Shown: in pieces, positions 11,480 to 31,334 of the stretch
How positions within the stretch are numbered: position 1 is the first letter of the stretch
Layout: every line of letters starts with the position of its first letter
From: a virus
Strand: one strand, 5' to 3'
DNA: 31,334 bases
Virus record (IMG/VR): IMGVR_UViG_3300005606_000003
Span: 1 to 31,334 of that record
Position numbers and translations under genes: made by a program
The notes under the pieces: model-generated
What the model was told of the DNA's origin: nothing
What the model saw: only the letters and a program-made list of their open reading frames with translations
Database searches by the model: none

Positions 11480-11687
11480 AAAAAGTTTTTTAGAAAGCAT
11501 AAGCGATACTTTTATTGGCTTATGTATAAATTTCCCCTTGGGGTTTACTGTCTTGGTTGTGATGACTTGGTTTACAACTAACCCTTTATATATTAGCGGG
11601 GCCCAGACCATAGTCTTGACAATCACTGCAATTATAAGGCGGTACCTAACAAGAGAATTCTTTAGGATCCGTGTAAATGCAGATTAA
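11472..11687 (+). CDS. DUF7220-like small membrane protein
   Basis: This is a 71-residue protein with two hydrophobic helices (about residues 15-33 and 42-55) and a basic C-terminus (IRRYLTREFFRIRV). The pattern SFLESISDTFIGLCIN...GAQTIVLTITAIIRRYLTREFF matches small phage membrane proteins of the DUF7220 type, whose function is not known. It overlaps the upstream gene by 8 bases and is the last clear gene of the rightward early operon. Confidence 0.65.
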   Translation: MNKKSFLESISDTFIGLCINFPLGFTVLVVMTWFTTNPLYISGAQTIVLTITAIIRRYLTREFFRIRVNAD

Positions 11688-11711
11688 TAATGTTATGATC
11701 ATAAAAGATTT

Positions 11712-11762
11712 GGAGCCTGGACACACACTCCCCCATAATTCTCCCAAAAAGGTCTAGGCTCC
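11712..11762 (+). ncRNA. Stem-loop with C-rich loop at operon junction
   Basis: GGAGCCTGGAC (11712-11722) pairs with GTCTAGGCTCC (11752-11762) as 11 continuous pairs in plus-strand RNA, with one G-U. On the minus strand that pair becomes A-C, so the structure fits rightward RNA better. The 29-base loop contains CTCCCCC and CTCCC, complementary to Shine-Dalgarno sequences. There is no T-run. It could be a 3' end structure for two converging operons or a small regulatory RNA. Confidence 0.5.
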
Positions 11763-11767
11763 TCCAA

Positions 11768-11908
11768 CTACATTTTCAAGCTAATAATAGTTATTAAAGA
11801 AATCAGCAGACAATTTGTCAAAAATAAATTTAGGCAAAGGATAGTGTGATACCACACCCAACGAGTCTTATAGGCATTTTCAATATTAATCCTGGTGTCA
11901 GTATCCAC
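11768..11908 (-). CDS. 46-residue membrane microprotein
   Basis: This starts at a GTG (11908) that overlaps the end of the upstream gene by 11 bases, with GAGG upstream; a longer reading from 11950 would run through that gene. The sequence has NAYKTRWVWYHTILCLNLF followed by one hydrophobic helix to the C-terminus, a plausible single-pass protein with a basic-aromatic cytoplasmic side. It is the tenth and last gene of the leftward operon. Function unknown. Confidence 0.55.
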   Translation of the reverse strand: MDTDTRINIENAYKTRWVWYHTILCLNLFLTNCLLISLITIISLKM

Positions 11909-12002
11909 TAGCAACCTCGGCAAAATAAATAATTGTATTAACGCCAACATATGTCGCCATAATTAAAAGCAGTAAGCAAAACCAAAATAATTGTTCATTC
12001 AT
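11898..12002 (-). CDS. 34-residue membrane microprotein
   Basis: It starts at an ATG overlapping the upstream stop as ATGA. The peptide begins MNEQLFWFCLLLLIMATYVG and is hydrophobic through most of its length, giving one membrane helix. The reading is supported by its neat fit between two coupled neighbours rather than by similarity. Confidence 0.5.
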   Translation of the reverse strand: MNEQLFWFCLLLLIMATYVGVNTIIYFAEVASGY

Positions 12003-12106
12003 TTATTCTTTGCCTCTTTAATTTTATATTTGGCTTTCAATCTTTCTAAAGACTTTTCCGAAATGCGGCCGTTAGGCCAGGATTTAGTTTTAACTTCTTT
12101 ATTCAT
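11999..12106 (-). CDS. 35-residue basic microprotein
   Basis: A Lys-rich peptide (MNKEVKTKSWPNGRISEKSL...) whose ATG overlaps the stop of the upstream membrane peptide as ATGA and whose own stop overlaps the next start. No family is recognised. WPNGRISEKSLERLKAKY hints at a small helical nucleic-acid-binding protein, but this is a guess. Confidence 0.5.
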   Translation of the reverse strand: MNKEVKTKSWPNGRISEKSLERLKAKYKIKEAKNK

Positions 12107-12183
12107 ACTAAATATATTTCTAAATTATAAACAAAAGCCACAACAATTATGGCCATAAATAAAATTATAAAATTTTTAATCAT
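12103..12183 (-). CDS. 26-residue membrane microprotein
   Basis: The peptide MIKNFIILFMAIIVVAFVYN... is one hydrophobic helix with a short basic start. It overlaps the upstream gene by 8 bases and the downstream start as ATGA. Length and coupling resemble phage-encoded membrane microproteins; function unknown. Confidence 0.5.
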   Translation of the reverse strand: MIKNFIILFMAIIVVAFVYNLEIYLV

Positions 12184-12355
12184 CGTCTACTAACCCTCCC
12201 TTGGCTTGGTATTTGTCATATAAAAAATCTAAATTTGCGATCACATAATCATCATAAGAAATAGAGTCCTCCTGGTAGGCCCGTCTTTCCCTGTTAGCCT
12301 CTAGCCACATTAAGTGACAATAAGATTTAAAAGATATTTCTAACTGATCTGTCAT
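12176..12355 (-). CDS. 59-residue hypothetical protein
   Basis: It starts at an ATG overlapping the upstream stop as ATGA, with AAGG just before. It is helical in the first half (LEISFKSYCHLMWLEANRER) and acidic at the end (GLVDDD). It contains codon pairs typical of this phage (GCC-TAC-CAG-GAG). No family is recognised. Confidence 0.6.
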   Translation of the reverse strand: MTDQLEISFKSYCHLMWLEANRERRAYQEDSISYDDYVIANLDFLYDKYQAKGGLVDDD

Positions 12356-12501
12356 TTACCTTGGCCTCTATATTTTTTGAACGAGCGTTTGCGGTTTTTA
12401 TTCATTGTACTAAACGCAATGTTGCCTCGACCTTGACTGGTCTTTTTTCCCCTGGATCCACAAACGCTCTGATGTTTGGTTTCTCTGTATTTATTAACCA
12501 T
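12352..12501 (-). CDS. 49-residue very basic protein
   Basis: About one third of residues are Lys or Arg. It ends KNRKRSFKKYRGQGK, a tail I associate with small conserved phage proteins, though I cannot name a family. It lies 12 bases after the preceding gene without a clear ribosome site, and its TGA overlaps the next ATG. Nucleic-acid or ribosome binding is plausible but unproven. Confidence 0.6.
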   Translation of the reverse strand: MVNKYRETKHQSVCGSRGKKTSQGRGNIAFSTMNKNRKRSFKKYRGQGK

Positions 12502-12513
12502 AGGAGTGCCGGG

Positions 12514-12780
12514 TCAAAATCGATGGGGGGGAGTTAGGGGAGTAAGATTTTGCCCGACACCTTGTATTCTTGTTTCTAATTGATAATGAATATAATTATT
12601 TATGGCCTTTAATAATCGCTCGGCCTCTGGACTTATATCTGTCTTATTGCCAGTTAATAAATATCTACTCATTTTTGCATAAATAAGAGGTAATGCCTGG
12701 GGGCCGTCATTTATAAAGTCGTCCTTATGTGCTTCAAAAAAATCCTGGGCCAAGGCATTTAAGTCGCCAGTATTAACCAT
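12514..12780 (-). CDS. 88-residue helical hypothetical protein
   Basis: The start at 12780 is chosen for its strong AGGAGGAAA site; a longer frame to 12807 lacks one. The product begins MVNTGDLNALAQDFFEAHKDD and is helical and slightly acidic, with a Pro-rich end. It overlaps the upstream gene by 8 bases. No family is recognised. Confidence 0.65.
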   Translation of the reverse strand: MVNTGDLNALAQDFFEAHKDDFINDGPQALPLIYAKMSRYLLTGNKTDISPEAERLLKAINNYIHYQLETRIQGVGQNLTPLTPPHRF

Positions 12781-12982
12781 AGTTTTCCTCCTGGATGTTA
12801 TGACCATTAAGTGTGTTGTGATTGACCTGGGCCCCTCTTTGCAACTCCTCGTGCTTTTGTCTTAACTCCAGGGCCTTATCTTTAAGCTCTTGCTCAAATT
12901 GTTTTGGGATCCACACAGTGGATCTAACTAAACCTTTTTCCTTATTTCTTTGAGCATACCTCTCCTGGTTTTTATATTTCAC
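12773..12982 (-). CDS. Ribbon-helix-helix-like small protein
   Basis: This is 69 residues from a GTG with AGGAGAG at good spacing. Residues ~17-42 (GLVRSTVWIPKQFEQELKDKA) read as a short basic beta strand followed by a helix, the pattern of ribbon-helix-helix DNA-binding proteins, with a further charged helix after it. It could be the regulator of this leftward operon and bind the palindrome at its promoter; that link is inference. Confidence 0.55.
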   Translation of the reverse strand: MKYKNQERYAQRNKEKGLVRSTVWIPKQFEQELKDKALELRQKHEELQRGAQVNHNTLNGHNIQEENYG

Positions 12983-13066
12983 AATTCTCTCCTGTAATGT
13001 AAGGGGGTGTTTTTAGAACTAAAATATTCCTATTCATAAAATAGTCGCTCAAAATGGTCGTCCTAT

Positions 13067-13240
13067 TTAGTAGTCTATTATTTCTAAGTTATTCAGACGC
13101 TCTTTTTTAGTACGGATTTTGGCAATTTCTAAATCCCAAAGAACGGCTTTATTTGACTCACGATCTATTCGTGTGATCAAACAGAAATAAGTAGTCCCTA
13201 AAATTCTAACCTTTTGACCTGGTCTGAATGTTAGCTCCAC
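13067..13240 (-). CDS. 57-residue beta-rich hypothetical protein
   Basis: It starts at a GTG inside the last codons of the upstream gene (10-base overlap) next to a GAGAGGAG site. The sequence (LTFRPGQKVRILGTTYFCLITRI...) begins like a small SH3- or KOW-like barrel and ends in a charged helix. It is too short for confident assignment, but coupling and composition support a real gene. Confidence 0.55.
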   Translation of the reverse strand: MELTFRPGQKVRILGTTYFCLITRIDRESNKAVLWDLEIAKIRTKKERLNNLEIIDY

Positions 13241-13425
13241 TCTCCTCTCGCTTTTTCATGTAAATTAATTAGATACTTTTTTTGTACCAGGACATCATAA
13301 CCAGACTCCTTAAGGCTCCTGGCTTTATCTTCGGCTAATTTTTCATCTCTAAATTGATTCCAAATGTAGCCGCCCAAATCTGGCATAAAATATCCAACCT
13401 TGTAAATTACTTGAGTATGTTCCAT
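13231..13425 (-). CDS. 64-residue hypothetical protein, first gene of leftward operon
   Basis: A strong AAGGAGG site precedes the ATG, and a promoter with a palindromic operator lies just upstream. The product (MEHTQVIYKVGYFMPDLGG...) is a compact mixed alpha/beta protein with EDKARSLKESGYDVLVQKKY. As the first gene it is likely the best expressed of the operon. No family is recognised. Confidence 0.7.
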   Translation of the reverse strand: MEHTQVIYKVGYFMPDLGGYIWNQFRDEKLAEDKARSLKESGYDVLVQKKYLINLHEKARGEWS

Positions 13426-13449
13426 TTATAACCTCCTTAAGTAATGTAG

Positions 13450-13483
13450 TCGTATTATAACCGATATAGTACGACCACAACAA
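13450..13483 (-). promoter_or_regulatory. Leftward operon promoter with operator palindrome
   Basis: On the minus strand TTGTTG (13483-13478), an 18-base spacer and TATAAT (13459-13454) form a good sigma70 promoter about 30 bases before the first leftward start. Overlapping it, TCGTATTATA (13450-13459) and TATAGTACGA (13465-13474) form a 9-of-10 inverted repeat around 5 bases. This is a likely repressor site covering the -10. Its ATAGTACGA half recurs at 5046-5054. Confidence 0.7.
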
Positions 13484-13485
13484 GT

Positions 13486-13500
13486 GTCCGGGCCCCGGAC
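13486..13500. promoter_or_regulatory. GC-rich palindrome between divergent genes
   Basis: GTCCGGG and CCCGGAC flank a single C, a perfect 7+1+7 palindrome. It lies just upstream of the leftward -35 and about 50 bases before the methyltransferase gene. A regulator-binding site is likely. It also contains GGGCCC, one of the enriched palindromes of this genome. Confidence 0.5.
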
Positions 13501-13552
13501 TGTTCACAGATTCTAAAATCACTTAAAATATATCGGATAATTTTTTTTATGG

Positions 13553-14848
13553 ATGGACACTATGACAAATGCAGCACAAGAAATTAAGACTCTCCAGGTA
13601 AAGGATTTAATTCCTTACGCCAGGAACAGCAGAACGCACGACGACTACCAGGTAAACCAAATAGTAAGCTCAATAAAAGAGTTTGGCTTTACTAACCCTA
13701 TCCTGGTAGATGACGATAATTCAATAATAGCCGGGCACGGCCGACTAATGGCCGCACAAAAGTTAGGCCTAAAAGAAGTGCCAACAATTAATCTTGGCTA
13801 TCTATCAGACGCACAAAAAAAAGCATATGTAATAGCAGACAATAGACTAGCTCTTAATGCCGGTTGGGACTTAGATATGCTTAAACTTGAAATAGATGAC
13901 CTGGGCGAACTAGACTTTGATGTTGATATCCTTGGCTTTACAGATGATGAGTTAAAGAACATCCTGGCCGATAAAAACGACGGCCTGGTAGATGAAGACC
14001 AGGTACCAGATGTCCAGGACGAATTTATAACGAAGCCTGGAGACTTATGGATCCTGGGTGAGCATAGATTATTATGCGGTGACGCTACCCTGGATACAGA
14101 CTGTAATAAATTAATGGACGGCCAATTAGCTGATCTTGTTTTTACGGATCCGCCGTACAATGTCGATTACTCTGGCGGCCGCCAACAAGATATGCACAAA
14201 AAAGAATACGGCAAAATAAAAAACGACGCTATGACGCCAGACCAATTTAATGAATTTATTGGAGATATATTTGCTAATTATTACTCTTATATGAAGCCTC
14301 TAGCCTGTATATTTGTTTGTCATCCAGACTCAGTAAGTGAGGCCAAGATAACATTCGAGGTAGAGTTTGCTAAACATTTTAAAAAGTCTGCCAATATTAT
14401 TTGGGATAAAGGTAATGCCGGTCTTGGCTACCAAGATTATCGGGCCCAACACGAGCCAATATTGTTTGGTTGGAAGCAAGGCGACGGCCAACATTATTTT
14501 ATCGGGGCCAGAGATAAGACGACTATTTGGAGAATACAAAAAGACTCAACCATGAAATATGTACACGCTACGCAAAAGCCGGTAGCATTGACAGAAGAGG
14601 CCATCTTAAATCATAGTAAAGGTAGCGACATCGTTGCAGATTATTTTGGAGGCTCTGGCTCAACATTAATTGGTTGTGAGAAATCTGGCCGCAAATGTTA
14701 TTCAATGGAACTGGATCCACAATATTGTGACGTTATTATTAGACGCTACCAAGAATACACCGGCAAAGATGCAGTCTTAAAGGTCGGCGATAGTCAAACT
14801 ACATTTAAAGAGTTAGAAGATGAAAGAGATAAAAAACCAGAAGAATAG
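13553..14848 (+). CDS. ParB-domain DNA adenine methyltransferase
   Basis: This is a 431-residue fusion. Residues ~12-130 are a ParB/Srx-like domain (IVSSIKEFGFTNPILVDDD...IIAGHGRLMAAQKLG). The rest is a beta-class DNA methyltransferase with motif IV DPPY (199-202), a catalytic-site sequence usual for N6-adenine (or N4-cytosine) enzymes, and the AdoMet-binding motif FGGSGST (365-371) following it. Such fusions are common in temperate phages and probably protect phage DNA or alter expression; the target site cannot be read from sequence. ATGs at 13553 and 13562 are both possible starts, neither with a strong ribosome site. It overlaps the next gene by 29 bases. Confidence 0.88.
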   Translation: MDTMTNAAQEIKTLQVKDLIPYARNSRTHDDYQVNQIVSSIKEFGFTNPILVDDDNSIIAGHGRLMAAQKLGLKEVPTINLGYLSDAQKKAYVIADNRLALNAGWDLDMLKLEIDDLGELDFDVDILGFTDDELKNILADKNDGLVDEDQVPDVQDEFITKPGDLWILGEHRLLCGDATLDTDCNKLMDGQLADLVFTDPPYNVDYSGGRQQDMHKKEYGKIKNDAMTPDQFNEFIGDIFANYYSYMKPLACIFVCHPDSVSEAKITFEVEFAKHFKKSANIIWDKGNAGLGYQDYRAQHEPILFGWKQGDGQHYFIGARDKTTIWRIQKDSTMKYVHATQKPVALTEEAILNHSKGSDIVADYFGGSGSTLIGCEKSGRKCYSMELDPQYCDVIIRRYQEYTGKDAVLKVGDSQTTFKELEDERDKKPEE

Positions 14849-27082: not shown

Positions 27083-28294
27083 ATGAGCGATACATTTACT
27101 AATAATCTAAATTTAACAAAACCGGCCGTTGGCGGATCCACGGACACCTGGGGCACAAAAATAAATAATGACCTGGACTCCGTTGATGCAATTTTCTCAG
27201 CTACGGGAACTGAGGTTAATATAAGATTTAATTCAGCAAACTTTGACGATAATAAAAAAGCATTATTTGGTACAGGGGATGATTTAGAAATTTACCATGA
27301 TGGCTCAAATTCAATAATTAAAGATTCTGGAACAGGTAATTTAACTTTATTAGCTACAAATTTAAGTATTAAAAATGCTGGTGATAGTGAAAACTATTTA
27401 ACTGCTAATGATGGTGGCGATTTAATTCTTTATAAAGCTGGAACAGAAAAAGCCAGAACTAGCACAAATGGTTTCAATGTCACAGGAGATATTGCAGTCA
27501 CAGGAACTGTTGATGGTAGAGATATTGCAACAGATGGAACTAAACTGGATGGGATTGCGGCCGGGGCCACAAATGTCACGAACACAAACCAATTAACAAA
27601 CGGAGCGGGTTTTCTTACCAGTGCCGATGGCGGAAATGCGGCCCAAGTAGACGGGTTTGACGCCTCGACTGGAGGCGGAAATTCTAAATTAGTAGCTACT
27701 GAATCGTTTGGATATATGCATTTAGATAATTGGATGAGACTTGCAAATGATACTGGTATTTTTATTAATGAAACTAGTGCTAGACACTTTTATGCTAAAT
27801 CAGGAAGTGTTTATTGGCACTCAAGGTCATCAGACACCACAGTAAGTGGTTTTAGACTAGAAAATTCTGGTGGTACTCAAATTGGTTGGATTTATGTAGA
27901 TGCTAACTCTGCACAAGGATTTTTAACTACAAGTGGTGGTTGGGCGATAAGAACAGACAATTCTGGAAATTTCACAGCGACAGGAAATGTCACGGCTTAT
28001 TCAGATGAAAGATTAAAATCTAATATCAAAGATATTGACTCTGCATTAAACAAAGTTTGCTCTTTAAGAGGTGTTGAGTACACCAGGAACGCTACTGGCA
28101 AAAAAGAAATAGGTGTTATTGCACAAGAAGTGAAAGAGGTTGTTCCAGAACTTGTAGATATAGTAGACGAATCAACTGAAGAGTCTGAGGGCTTAAAAGA
28201 TTTGCATATTATGAAATATCAAAACACAGTCGGTTTGCTTATTGAAGCTATTAAAGAGTTAGAGAAAAAAGTTTCAGATTTAGAGGGTAAATAA
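27083..28294 (+). CDS. Tail fibre with C-terminal S74 chaperone
   Basis: This is 403 residues. The N-terminus (NLNLTKPAVGGSTDTWGTKI...) is a virion-attachment segment common in marine phages. Middle repeats include DLEIYHDGSN and DGRDIATDGTKLDGIAAGAT. The C-terminus from ~307 is an intramolecular chaperone of the Peptidase_S74 family: SDERLKSN places S307 and K312 five apart, as in the Ser/Lys dyad that cuts the chaperone off after trimer folding. GVIAQEV and a final coiled coil complete it. Much of the gene (27240-27550 and 27690-28080) lacks the palindromes common elsewhere and is AT-rich, suggesting recent exchange. Confidence 0.88.
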   Translation: MSDTFTNNLNLTKPAVGGSTDTWGTKINNDLDSVDAIFSATGTEVNIRFNSANFDDNKKALFGTGDDLEIYHDGSNSIIKDSGTGNLTLLATNLSIKNAGDSENYLTANDGGDLILYKAGTEKARTSTNGFNVTGDIAVTGTVDGRDIATDGTKLDGIAAGATNVTNTNQLTNGAGFLTSADGGNAAQVDGFDASTGGGNSKLVATESFGYMHLDNWMRLANDTGIFINETSARHFYAKSGSVYWHSRSSDTTVSGFRLENSGGTQIGWIYVDANSAQGFLTTSGGWAIRTDNSGNFTATGNVTAYSDERLKSNIKDIDSALNKVCSLRGVEYTRNATGKKEIGVIAQEVKEVVPELVDIVDESTEESEGLKDLHIMKYQNTVGLLIEAIKELEKKVSDLEGK

Positions 28295-28842
28295 TGCCAG
28301 TACCTAGTAGTGGAGCGATATCCTTAAATCAGTTTCATGTAGAAGCCGGGGGCACAAGCGGCACCACTTGCTCTATTAATGATTCAGACATCAGAGGTCT
28401 AATAGGAAAAGCCTCTGGAGTCACAATGTCTTTCAATGAATGGTATGGGGCGTCGGCAAGTGTACCCAACCAAGTCACAGGAAATTTGGTTTACTACGTT
28501 CCCCCTAACAGCAAATATAATGAAAAAAATTGGACGATGACAAGCTTCACAGACAGTACATTAGGCTCTTACACTGTTGAAAGAATTCTCATTGCAACTA
28601 GCTCGTTAATAAATTCAGGAGAAATAAGAATTGTTGGAAACGTATCATCGTATAGTACCCTTCAAGCGTTGGTTGGATATAGATACATGAAGATAGGTAG
28701 TACAACAATTTTGGACTTATCCTCGCAAGGAGCGGTCACTATGTACCTTTCTGGTCTAAATGTGACTAAGTTCCCTATTATTGCTCATTCGGCATCTCCG
28801 GCACAATCAACTCAAACCACAACATTTACTTTTGCTAATTAA
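28294..28842 (+). CDS. Tail/fibre-associated protein
   Basis: This is 182 residues, overlapping the fibre stop (TAATG). The first ~55 residues (PSSGAISLNQFHVEAGG, DSDIRGLIGKASG, SFNEWYGAS) are a conserved virion segment seen in many marine phages. The rest is beta-rich and variable, as expected for a receptor-facing or fibre-tip domain. The whole gene lacks GGCC, CCWGG and GATC, unlike most of the window. Confidence 0.7.
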   Translation: MPVPSSGAISLNQFHVEAGGTSGTTCSINDSDIRGLIGKASGVTMSFNEWYGASASVPNQVTGNLVYYVPPNSKYNEKNWTMTSFTDSTLGSYTVERILIATSSLINSGEIRIVGNVSSYSTLQALVGYRYMKIGSTTILDLSSQGAVTMYLSGLNVTKFPIIAHSASPAQSTQTTTFTFAN

Positions 28843-28846
28843 TATT

Positions 28847-28945
28847 ATGGAAAAAGAAAAATCACAAGATACAACGGATCCGGTGGTTGGCGATATCACA
28901 AAGCCGTCAAAGGATCTTCCGGTCACAGAAACGGAGTCAATATAA
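28847..28945 (+). CDS. 32-residue hydrophilic peptide
   Basis: A frame of 33 codons fills the gap between two genes and ends on the next start (TAATG). The peptide is acidic and Thr-rich (MEKEKSQDTTDPVVGD...). It has no strong ribosome site. Coupling and position favour a real gene, but similarity cannot be judged. Confidence 0.45.
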   Translation: MEKEKSQDTTDPVVGDITKPSKDLPVTETESI

Positions 28946-29658
28946 TGGAAATGACTTACGAATTTAAATGTTCCTATCCTTCGTGGGTACATAATTTTGA
29001 CGATGAAATTCAAGTCACAGTCGTCGAGGGACAAATTGGCGACAAAATTACAAGAGAAAAACTTGAGGACAATGTTGACGGCGATAACTTGGTTTATGAC
29101 AGTCAAAGCGACAAAATTTTTAAAAGGCCTAATAAAATGATTTGCATCCAGGGCAGTATTGAAATGAATAACTTTTGGTCAAACGAGGGCATAGAGGCTA
29201 CGGACATTGATAGGCTTAAAGAATTGACTGCTAATGACAAAATAAAAGCCGGTGTGTATAGCGAAAGCACAACCGAGGATGCAATTTCTAACAAAGCATT
29301 CAACAGCACTTACCAATTTAATTCCGATTATGATGTATTGGCCCCAATGTCTAGAGAGTGGGCCCTGGCAACACCTGGAACATTAAAAGCGACATCAACC
29401 GACACCAGGCTTTTTTGTATGCTAACCGAAAGGTCAGATTATGAAATAAAAATAATTGATATTTTTCCAGGAGATTTAAAAACAATAAATAAAGATGAAA
29501 GCAAAACTTTCAGTTATGTTTTCTTTTCTCAAAAATGCTCAATTAGAAACGGGGCCGGAGTTTGTGATCAATATTCTGTCAAAAAATTACAAAGCGACAC
29601 TGTTGATATAAGAAACCTGGGCGACCTAACCGCAAGAATTATTTTAATAGAGAGGTAA
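28945..29658 (+). CDS. Hypothetical protein upstream of Coq4 homologue
   Basis: This is 237 residues, mostly beta. A region near 165-195 (IKIIDIFPGDLKTINKDESK) resembles a strand pair of cupin-like barrels, but without the metal-binding His residues, so this is weak. It lies three bases before the Coq4-family gene. I do not recognise the family; it may be a virion protein or a partner of the Coq4-like protein. Confidence 0.6.
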   Translation: MEMTYEFKCSYPSWVHNFDDEIQVTVVEGQIGDKITREKLEDNVDGDNLVYDSQSDKIFKRPNKMICIQGSIEMNNFWSNEGIEATDIDRLKELTANDKIKAGVYSESTTEDAISNKAFNSTYQFNSDYDVLAPMSREWALATPGTLKATSTDTRLFCMLTERSDYEIKIIDIFPGDLKTINKDESKTFSYVFFSQKCSIRNGAGVCDQYSVKKLQSDTVDIRNLGDLTARIILIER

Positions 29659-29661
29659 ATT

Positions 29662-30519
29662 ATGGCGTGGAATTTATTAAAAATGGGTAAAAGCATACAC
29701 CACTTGATGACTACATATGGCGAGGGGAATGATCTTGAGCCAATGGAAAAAGACCTAACAGGCGAAAGCCGTGTGGATCATGTTGTGTCTTTATATAGAG
29801 AAATGAACGTTCCGTTTGGAATAATGATGATGTTAAAAAATAGAGTTTCAGAAAACGGCAGACACATAATTTGGGGAAGAAAATGGAATGACCGAAAGTA
29901 TGTTGAAGAAACAGTAATACCAAAATTGATGGATTATGATTATTTGTCATCATTGCCACCTAACACAGTAGGTGCCCATTATCACAACTTAATAAAAGAT
30001 TTTGGAATTGAAAAACTTTACAACCAAAGATTTAAAAAAGAGGAAAAAAGAGAGGGCGGTATCAATAATATTTATAATTCTTTCAGCGATGACATAAGAG
30101 AGAACGCCTCCAGGCACTTATTACTAAGCCACGATATTTGGCACGTTTTATTTAGATATGACACAACGCCAATGGGCGAGGCTATGATCCAAACAATAAC
30201 GGCCAGGATCTTTAATTTTTTTCCGCCGCACTTAACAGGATTTTTTGGTACCTGGAAGATGGCTAAAAAAACTGGGAGCAAACTACCTTGGAAAGTTTGG
30301 AAAGAATGCCTAAAACTTTCAAAAGGAGTCAATAAAGAATTAGCCTTATATAGTCCGATTGAATTTTTAGAACACGATATTCAAGAAGTAAGAGACAGAT
30401 TTAACATATTCACTCCTAAAGTCTATGCTGAATATGTTAAGTCTTTACCAAAGTTTTCTAGAATGGACACTATCCACCCTAATTATCAAGACAAAGTATG
30501 GAACTCAGAAATAATTTAA
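29662..30519 (+). CDS. Coq4-family protein (ubiquinone biosynthesis homologue)
   Basis: This is 285 residues. The Coq4 metal motif HDxxH-x11-E is intact: H157, D158, H161 and E173 in LLSHDIWHVLFRYDTTPMGEA. Upstream, LPPNTVGAHYHNLIKD matches the P-x-G/N-T-x-G-x-x-Y segment of the family. Coq4 works in ubiquinone synthesis, where it has been linked to the oxidative decarboxylation of the quinone head precursor, and associates with the inner membrane. Here it lies among tail genes and overlaps a small membrane protein gene by 22 bases. It may alter host respiration or be recruited for another purpose. It carries CCWGG, GGCC and GATC in its second half, so it is not an obviously recent arrival. 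Confidence 0.85.
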   Translation: MAWNLLKMGKSIHHLMTTYGEGNDLEPMEKDLTGESRVDHVVSLYREMNVPFGIMMMLKNRVSENGRHIIWGRKWNDRKYVEETVIPKLMDYDYLSSLPPNTVGAHYHNLIKDFGIEKLYNQRFKKEEKREGGINNIYNSFSDDIRENASRHLLLSHDIWHVLFRYDTTPMGEAMIQTITARIFNFFPPHLTGFFGTWKMAKKTGSKLPWKVWKECLKLSKGVNKELALYSPIEFLEHDIQEVRDRFNIFTPKVYAEYVKSLPKFSRMDTIHPNYQDKVWNSEII

Positions 30520-30716
30520 AATGGAATTGGCCCATATTAACAAAAATTAAAAAGGTTTATAAAGAAAAGGGCCTGGCTAAAACTGTTTTATGGATCCTAG
30601 TTATATTTTTAGGAATAAAACTTGTGATCCTAAATGGAATTATTTTTTTATTAAATAATGTTTTTGGCACTGCTTTTGAATATGCCCCAATATTAAGATT
30701 TGTTTTTGGAGGTTAA
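30498..30716 (+). CDS. Single-pass membrane protein coupled to the Coq4 homologue
   Basis: This is 72 residues; the ATG lies inside the end of the Coq4-like gene. The N-terminal ~28 residues are basic, then a long hydrophobic segment (TVLWILVIFLGIKLVILNGI) spans the membrane. The tight overlap suggests co-production and perhaps a membrane anchor for the Coq4-like protein. No family is recognised. Confidence 0.65.
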   Translation: MELRNNLKWNWPILTKIKKVYKEKGLAKTVLWILVIFLGIKLVILNGIIFLLNNVFGTAFEYAPILRFVFGG

Positions 30717-30717
30717 T

Positions 30718-31334
30718 GTGCCCTATATTTCAATAACTCCACCACCTGGCATAAAGAAAAACGGAACAGATTATGCAAATAAAAATTCTTGGATTGATGG
30801 AAATTTAGTTCGTTTTGAAAATGGATTTTTAGCAAACGTTGGCGGTTGGCGAAAACTAAAAGACACTCCGGTTGTTGGCACACCGATTGGGGCCTACGCT
30901 TATTACACAAATACAAACAGACAAGTCTTGGCAATAGGTACCAGGGAGAAAGTTTATGTTAATTATGACAACCAATGGTACGACATCACGCCGACAGGTT
31001 TTACGGGCGACGTCGCTAACTCTCCTCTTGGTTATGGGGCCTATAATTGGGGAGCAGAAGATTACGGCGATGCAAGATCACAAAGTGGCCTGGCTTTTAA
31101 CACAAAGCCTTTTAGTTTTGCAAACTTCGGAGAAAACTTAATATTTGTTTGTGGCTCTGATCAAAAAATTTATAAATGGCGTCCGGACAACGGATCCGGA
31201 ACAACGCCTCCGACACCAGACTCACAAGCACAACAATTAACAAACGCTCCCCTGGGGGCCCAGGGCATATTAGTGACTAACGAGCGTCATATTTTTACGT
31301 TTGGTAATAATAGCAATCCAAGACAAATAAAATG
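30718..31334 (+). CDS. Tail protein, stabilisation/tail-tube-B-like (3' partial)
   Basis: The frame is open from the GTG at 30718, with GGAGG upstream, to the end of the window (205 residues). The start (MPYISITPPPGIKKNGTDYA, then IDGNLVRFENG and GGWRKL) and the repeated beta strands with Gly-Trp and Asn-rich turns match a large podovirus tail protein of marine phages, likened to the T7 tail-tube B protein or beta-propeller tail proteins. The rest of the gene lies beyond the window. Confidence 0.75.
   Translation, partial: MPYISITPPPGIKKNGTDYANKNSWIDGNLVRFENGFLANVGGWRKLKDTPVVGTPIGAYAYYTNTNRQVLAIGTREKVYVNYDNQWYDITPTGFTGDVANSPLGYGAYNWGAEDYGDARSQSGLAFNTKPFSFANFGENLIFVCGSDQKIYKWRPDNGSGTTPPTPDSQAQQLTNAPLGAQGILVTNERHIFTFGNNSNPRQIK

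Follow-up and report, generated by a model that had tools for sequence, protein, structure and literature searches.

The window, by which we mean the whole stretch of DNA that was analysed, is a virus record of 31,334 bases with a GC content of about 40%. Its genes include an integrase, exonuclease, primase, terminase, portal, scaffold, capsid, holin and endolysin, a content that we read as that of a temperate tailed phage. A 431-aa protein encoded at 13553-14848, just 5' of the small terminase gene, fuses a ParB-like domain to a DNA methyltransferase. The adjoining stretch at about 11480-13550 has no long forward ORF and a negative GC skew, and may correspond to a temperate phage's leftward repressor region. 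The portal does not suffice to name a host, as its best match among the Alphaproteobacteria sampled has 43% identity.

The gene of interest lies near the end of the contig, among tail genes that all run on the + strand. A tail fibre with an S74 intramolecular chaperone (27083..28294; Pfam Peptidase_S74, 1.3e-16; PHROG tail fibre) is followed by a fibre-associated protein with a conserved N-terminus (28294..28842; phrog_26746, 1.3e-22) and by a gene for a 237-aa protein (28945..29658), which, like its family as a whole, has no match in Pfam. Three bases further on begins the gene for a Coq4-like protein of 285 aa (29662..30519). Its predicted metal site, HDxxH-x11-E, is encoded at 30130..30180 (HDIWHVLFRYDTTPMGE; H157-D158-I-W-H161-x11-E173). 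The end of this gene overlaps by 22 nt the gene of a 72-aa single-pass membrane protein (30498..30716), whose hydrophobic segment is encoded at about 30582-30653. The last gene, for a tail-stabilisation or virion structural protein (30718..31332; phrog_3287, 2.9e-16), has homologues at L004:11060 onwards (contigs are designated by L numbers) and among annotated phage stabilization proteins, and is cut by the contig end. GTG at 30718 is its likely start, because TTG at 30700 falls within the membrane gene. This layout, with the 3-base gap and the overlapping membrane gene, is that of the original prediction, and the trio of 237-aa, Coq4 and membrane genes recurs in many other phages. In the relatives L003, L004 and L007 the Coq4 gene is interior to the contig, so the locus is not an assembly artefact. 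In L007 and L008, the genes past the tail-stabilisation gene run back to the first gene of the window.

Coq4 family membership of the 285-aa protein

The 285-aa protein matches the Pfam Coq4 profile (PF05019) with an E-value of 3.7e-9; its score of 36.6 bits clears the cut-off of 22.9, as do those of other phage homologues (40.7 bits in L008, 43.0 in L100, 37.1 in L017 and 24.8 in L010). The N-terminal part of the phage protein is poorly matched by the profile. Single-sequence phmmer gave no real match in the PDB, whereas a profile of the phage family retrieved from it only 3msq (4.5e-8) and 6e12 (4.6e-5), both of which are Coq4 proteins from Nostoc. Nostoc is a cyanobacterium and makes plastoquinone, not ubiquinone.

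An AlphaFold (AF2) model built from an alignment of 29 diverse homologues reached a pLDDT of 83.8 and a pTM of 0.84; a model based on 9 close sequences had a pLDDT of only 42 and was discarded. Foldseek placed 3msq and 6e12 at the top ranks for this model. Structural superposition by VIA-align gave a Z-score of 18.4 (rmsd 2.6 over 204 residues) to 6e12 and of 16.3 (rmsd 3.2) to 3msq, while the next, unrelated entry scored 4.1. The original claim of Coq4 homology had been staked on the fold, and the model matches both of the solved Coq4 structures, although the phage protein is only 15-16% identical to them.

Eight columns are invariant in the 29 aligned phage homologues (T102, G104, H157, D158, H161, E173, E215 and R244), and the G, H, D, H, E, E and R columns are also common to two aligned bacterial Coq4 proteins. 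The phage protein thus shares with the Coq4 family (3msq, Alr8543/6e12 and animal COQ4) the profile match, the fold, the exact HDxxH-x11-E and the T-x-G, E and R positions. The metal-site motif, originally noted as intact in the window, is indeed present there and is exact in all 57 near-full-length viral copies; a looser form occurs in 111/111 bacterial Coq4-like matches. Since the profile match, the PDB profile search, the model fold and the invariant columns agree, the assignment of the protein to the Coq4 family is firm.

Viral distribution, membrane partner and genomic contexts

Scans of viral contigs located a Coq4-like gene in 59 distinct contigs, including the window, so that the gene is present in many marine phages that have not been cultured. 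The gene is near-full-length in 57 of them, though many of these copies are closely related and do not amount to 57 independent observations (21 types at about 85% identity in the set then in hand). L010 and L017 carry a second deep type of phage Coq4 in the same genomic slot. Its position in the tree is unsure, and its long branches leave undecided whether it was acquired independently from bacteria.

No phage Coq4 is on record in the literature and database searches that were made. When four different members of the family were compared by tblastn with 50,697 phage records, no true match emerged, and the two hits to S-CAM1 (E=0.4) lie under a DNA helicase and were therefore rejected. No sequenced phage isolate carrying the gene was found in this search. 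The Coq4-like protein had no match in PHROG and no matching model in BFVD, and no paper tying Coq4 to phages was found in the open full-text literature, whose coverage is incomplete.

The coupling to a single-pass membrane gene, noticed originally in the window, extends across the family. A homologous gene of about 70-85 aa follows Coq4 within about 80 bases in 48 of the 57 loci with downstream sequence; in 47 of the 57 it starts no more than 60 bases from the Coq4 stop, and in L108 it starts at -76. W9, P12, K41, N46 and P64 are invariant in this protein. In L287, L288 and L290, and presumably in their near relatives L286 and L289, the Coq4 gene instead overlaps at its end with a small membrane ORF that has no sequence relationship to the usual partner. 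In L287, L288 and L290 this ORF is followed by a 2OG-Fe(II) oxygenase-like gene. Four loci (L010, L017, L109 and L110) have Coq4 without the small membrane gene. An overlapping gene for a P-loop sulfotransferase-like protein takes the place of the membrane gene at L109:6813-7424 and at L110:1909 onwards.

The membrane protein is not exclusive to Coq4, because homologues of the 237-aa and membrane genes are paired in five contigs (L269-L273; e.g. L271:916-1829) that lack Coq4 throughout. This weakens the idea of the membrane gene as a partner of Coq4 only. In the two of these contigs that were read out, the pair lies directly 5' of M15-like endolysin and holin-like genes.

Two genomic contexts were seen for the phage gene. 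In 42 of the 59 contigs it lies between tail-fibre and tail-stabilisation genes, as in the window. The 237-aa gene is directly 5' of Coq4 in 37 of the 38 loci of this kind that could be tested; in the 38th (L110) it overlaps Coq4 solely through the choice of start codon. The other 17 contigs are T4-like. In these, phosphoribosyltransferase/redoxin genes lie on one side of Coq4 and glutaredoxin/glycosyltransferase genes on the other, PhoH and exonuclease genes are neighbours too, and none of the 17 gave a 237-aa homologue. The isolate nearest to them is Pelagibacter phage HTVC008M (42% identity in a large neighbouring protein). A second membrane protein of 53-74 aa lies just 5' of Coq4 in T4-like loci (e.g. 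L134:5821-5982), which places membrane proteins on both sides of the enzyme; it had no match in phage isolates.

The phage backbones of the two contexts are of at least two unrelated types, and the Coq4 tree requires at least two switches between them; the cassette has therefore moved between phage types. The absence of the 237-aa gene from T4-like loci suggests that Coq4 and the membrane gene are the moving unit, which the 237-aa gene joins in tail-region phages. Because the pair also occurs in the auxiliary-gene region of T4-like phages, a mobile metabolic cassette is favoured, and the evidence points to this rather than to a part of the virion. Of the two roles first entertained for the gene, the metabolic one thus gained ground and the virion one lost it.

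The place of the gene among virion genes, which had been considered odd, is less so in the light of Pelagibacter phage HTVC023P, where a tail-stabilisation gene of this kind is preceded by 2OG-Fe(II) oxygenases and a ferrochelatase. Metabolic genes thus stand in the same slots of marine tailed phages in HTVC023P and in the T4-like phages, but the enzymes there (2OG-Fe oxygenases and ferrochelatase; redoxin, glutaredoxin and glycosyltransferase) belong to families other than Coq4.

Selection and cellular relatives

The Coq4 gene is under strong purifying selection. Between the window and L002, dN is 0.010 and dS is 0.43-0.52, which corresponds to an omega of about 0.02; the gene, which has phage genes on both sides, is thus maintained by selection, as an auxiliary metabolic gene would be. 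Comparison of the window with L004 and L008 gave an omega of 0.06-0.07 with dS saturated, and deeper pairs gave 0.035-0.13 with dS high or saturated. The 237-aa gene (omega 0.10) and the membrane gene (0.12-0.31) evolve faster than Coq4. Among relatives, Coq4 remains 85-98% identical while the upstream S74 fibre drops to 31-49%.

Scanning genome contigs with the close-family alignment found no relative. Use of a mixed phage-bacterial alignment brought up 222 distant relatives, of which the best 80 were kept. None of the cellular relatives is close; the best are Coq4 proteins of Alphaproteobacteria and Cupriavidus, with about 25-36% identity. A cellular donor was not found in these scans. A tree of phage and bacterial Coq4 proteins only puts the main phage clade outside every bacterial sequence sampled, at the end of a long stem. 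The bacterial Coq4 loci examined also differ from the phage loci in having neither the small membrane gene nor the 237-aa neighbour, and the phage membrane-gene profile found no homologue in bacterial loci L136-L241.

The settings of cellular Coq4 are mixed. Some bacterial copies stand in catabolic clusters, as on a Sphingobium plasmid, where Coq4 lies among P450, acyl-CoA dehydrogenase and nitronate monooxygenase genes. A Coq4-like match was present in 26 of 289 sampled Alphaproteobacteria, and UbiD in 9 of these 26 as against 115 of the 263 Coq4-negative genomes. We considered whether Coq4 replaces UbiD across Alphaproteobacteria; these counts show no clear association, and only a small-genome, Coq7-linked subset fits. 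The subset comprises six genomes of 1.4-1.9 Mb in which Coq4 lies about 1-7 kb from Coq7 and DsbB, and in none of the six was UbiD matched. The Coq7/DsbB proximity and the missing UbiD match make at least one cellular Coq4 lineage look ubiquinone-linked, and the six genomes are candidates for a natural Coq4-based ubiquinone route in bacteria. UbiD is reported not to be always conserved in ubiquinone-making proteobacteria (PMC10626278). These alphaproteobacterial proteins, whose genomic setting suggests ubiquinone synthesis, share family and metal site with the phage protein, but in the tree they and the phage clade occupy separate sides. In these six genomes, G177, G052, G273, G153, G252 and G021 (L277, L278, L281 and L310-L312), an ArsC-like gene is also found near Coq4.

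Possible function and alternative explanations

Photosynthesis, carbon metabolism and nucleotide metabolism are among the functions for which phage-borne genes are known. We favour, with a probability of about 0.5, the reading that the phage protein is a membrane-anchored auxiliary metalloenzyme for which the best single guess of substrate is the C1 carboxyl of a ubiquinone precursor. The metal content, the recruitment to the membrane, the substrate, what the phage gains and the part played by the 237-aa protein are inferred. The phage would carry a genuine Coq4-family metalloenzyme as an auxiliary metabolic gene, and the 72-aa protein may anchor it to the membrane or otherwise be its partner, with translational coupling keeping the synthesis of the two in step. 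During infection the pair would reside at the host inner membrane and accept a polyprenylated substrate, with (oxidative) decarboxylation of the C1 carboxyl taking place at the predicted HDxxH-x11-E site. The outcome would be a quinone pool and a respiration that are kept running or reshaped while virions form. In animal COQ4, the HDxxH-x11-E site sustains Zn-dependent decarboxylation at C1, which is lost in double mutants of the four ligands (PMC7615680); for human COQ4, oxidative decarboxylation of C1 in one step has also been reported (PMC11495197). The scan of the window genes recognised no further gene of ubiquinone synthesis; such adjacency would be supportive, not defining.

Because cellular Coq4 occurs in such mixed settings, family membership suggests a role in ubiquinone synthesis but does not prove it, bacterial Coq4 also being found in non-ubiquinone contexts and the solved structures coming from the plastoquinone-making Nostoc. 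Orthology to the ubiquinone-linked lineage is likewise only putative, as the phage clade stands on its long stem outside the sampled bacterial Coq4. The Sphingobium cluster, the sparse occurrence of Coq4 in Alphaproteobacteria (9 of the 26 carriers also having UbiD), the deep separation of the phage clade and the oleic acid bound in the solved structure 6e12 would all suit a Coq4-family auxiliary membrane enzyme that acts on another isoprenoid or acyl lipid, such as a polyprenyl-phosphate carrier, a carotenoid, a fatty acyl group or another aromatic acid. We regard this as possible though somewhat doubtful, since a Coq7-linked lineage devoid of UbiD does exist in small-genome Alphaproteobacteria and the metal site is identical to that of the ubiquinone enzyme.

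The small coupled membrane protein could also belong to a moron for host control or superinfection exclusion, in which the Coq4-like protein and its partner, placed in the inner membrane, would block the entry of later phages or alter host physiology, the fold binding lipid without catalysis. The variable location on the tail-fibre side, which many of the phages share, and the membrane gene beside lysis genes in contigs that have no Coq4 would agree with it. We consider it improbable, as the invariance of the four metal ligands in all 57 copies points to catalysis and Coq4 retains high identity next to a variable fibre. Least probable, and very unlikely in our judgement, is a structural or tail-associated virion protein. 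Its position between tail fibre and tail-stabilisation genes in most loci, with the 237-aa gene adjoining wherever this could be tested, would be in keeping with such a role; however, the gene stands away from tail genes and without the 237-aa gene in the 17 T4-like loci, phages with a homologous stabilisation gene (L011-L016) have no annotated Coq4 in the same slot, and HTVC023P holds metabolic enzymes there.

The ubiquinone reading leaves unexplained the lock between Coq4 and the 237-aa gene in the tail context. We also entertain, tentatively and at low probability, that the 237-aa, Coq4 and membrane proteins form a membrane complex evolved in viruses, with a Coq4 branch long apart from its cellular counterparts. 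Such a complex would reprogram the quinone or isoprenoid-lipid pool of the host and would be swapped between unrelated marine phages with or without its 237-aa subunit.

Should the enzyme act on ubiquinone, marine viruses would interfere directly with the carrier that moves electrons in host respiration. The phage copies are small natural variants that come with their own membrane partner, and in that case they would help to settle the role of Coq4 and the route by which it reaches its membrane-bound substrate. If another lipid is the substrate, the disease-linked Coq4 family would have a second chemistry. A ubiquinone-pathway gene has already been reported from viruses of the Baltic Sea, namely ubiG (PMC9301287), which resembles the phage Coq4 gene in being a metabolic gene of that pathway and differs from it in encoding another enzyme family.
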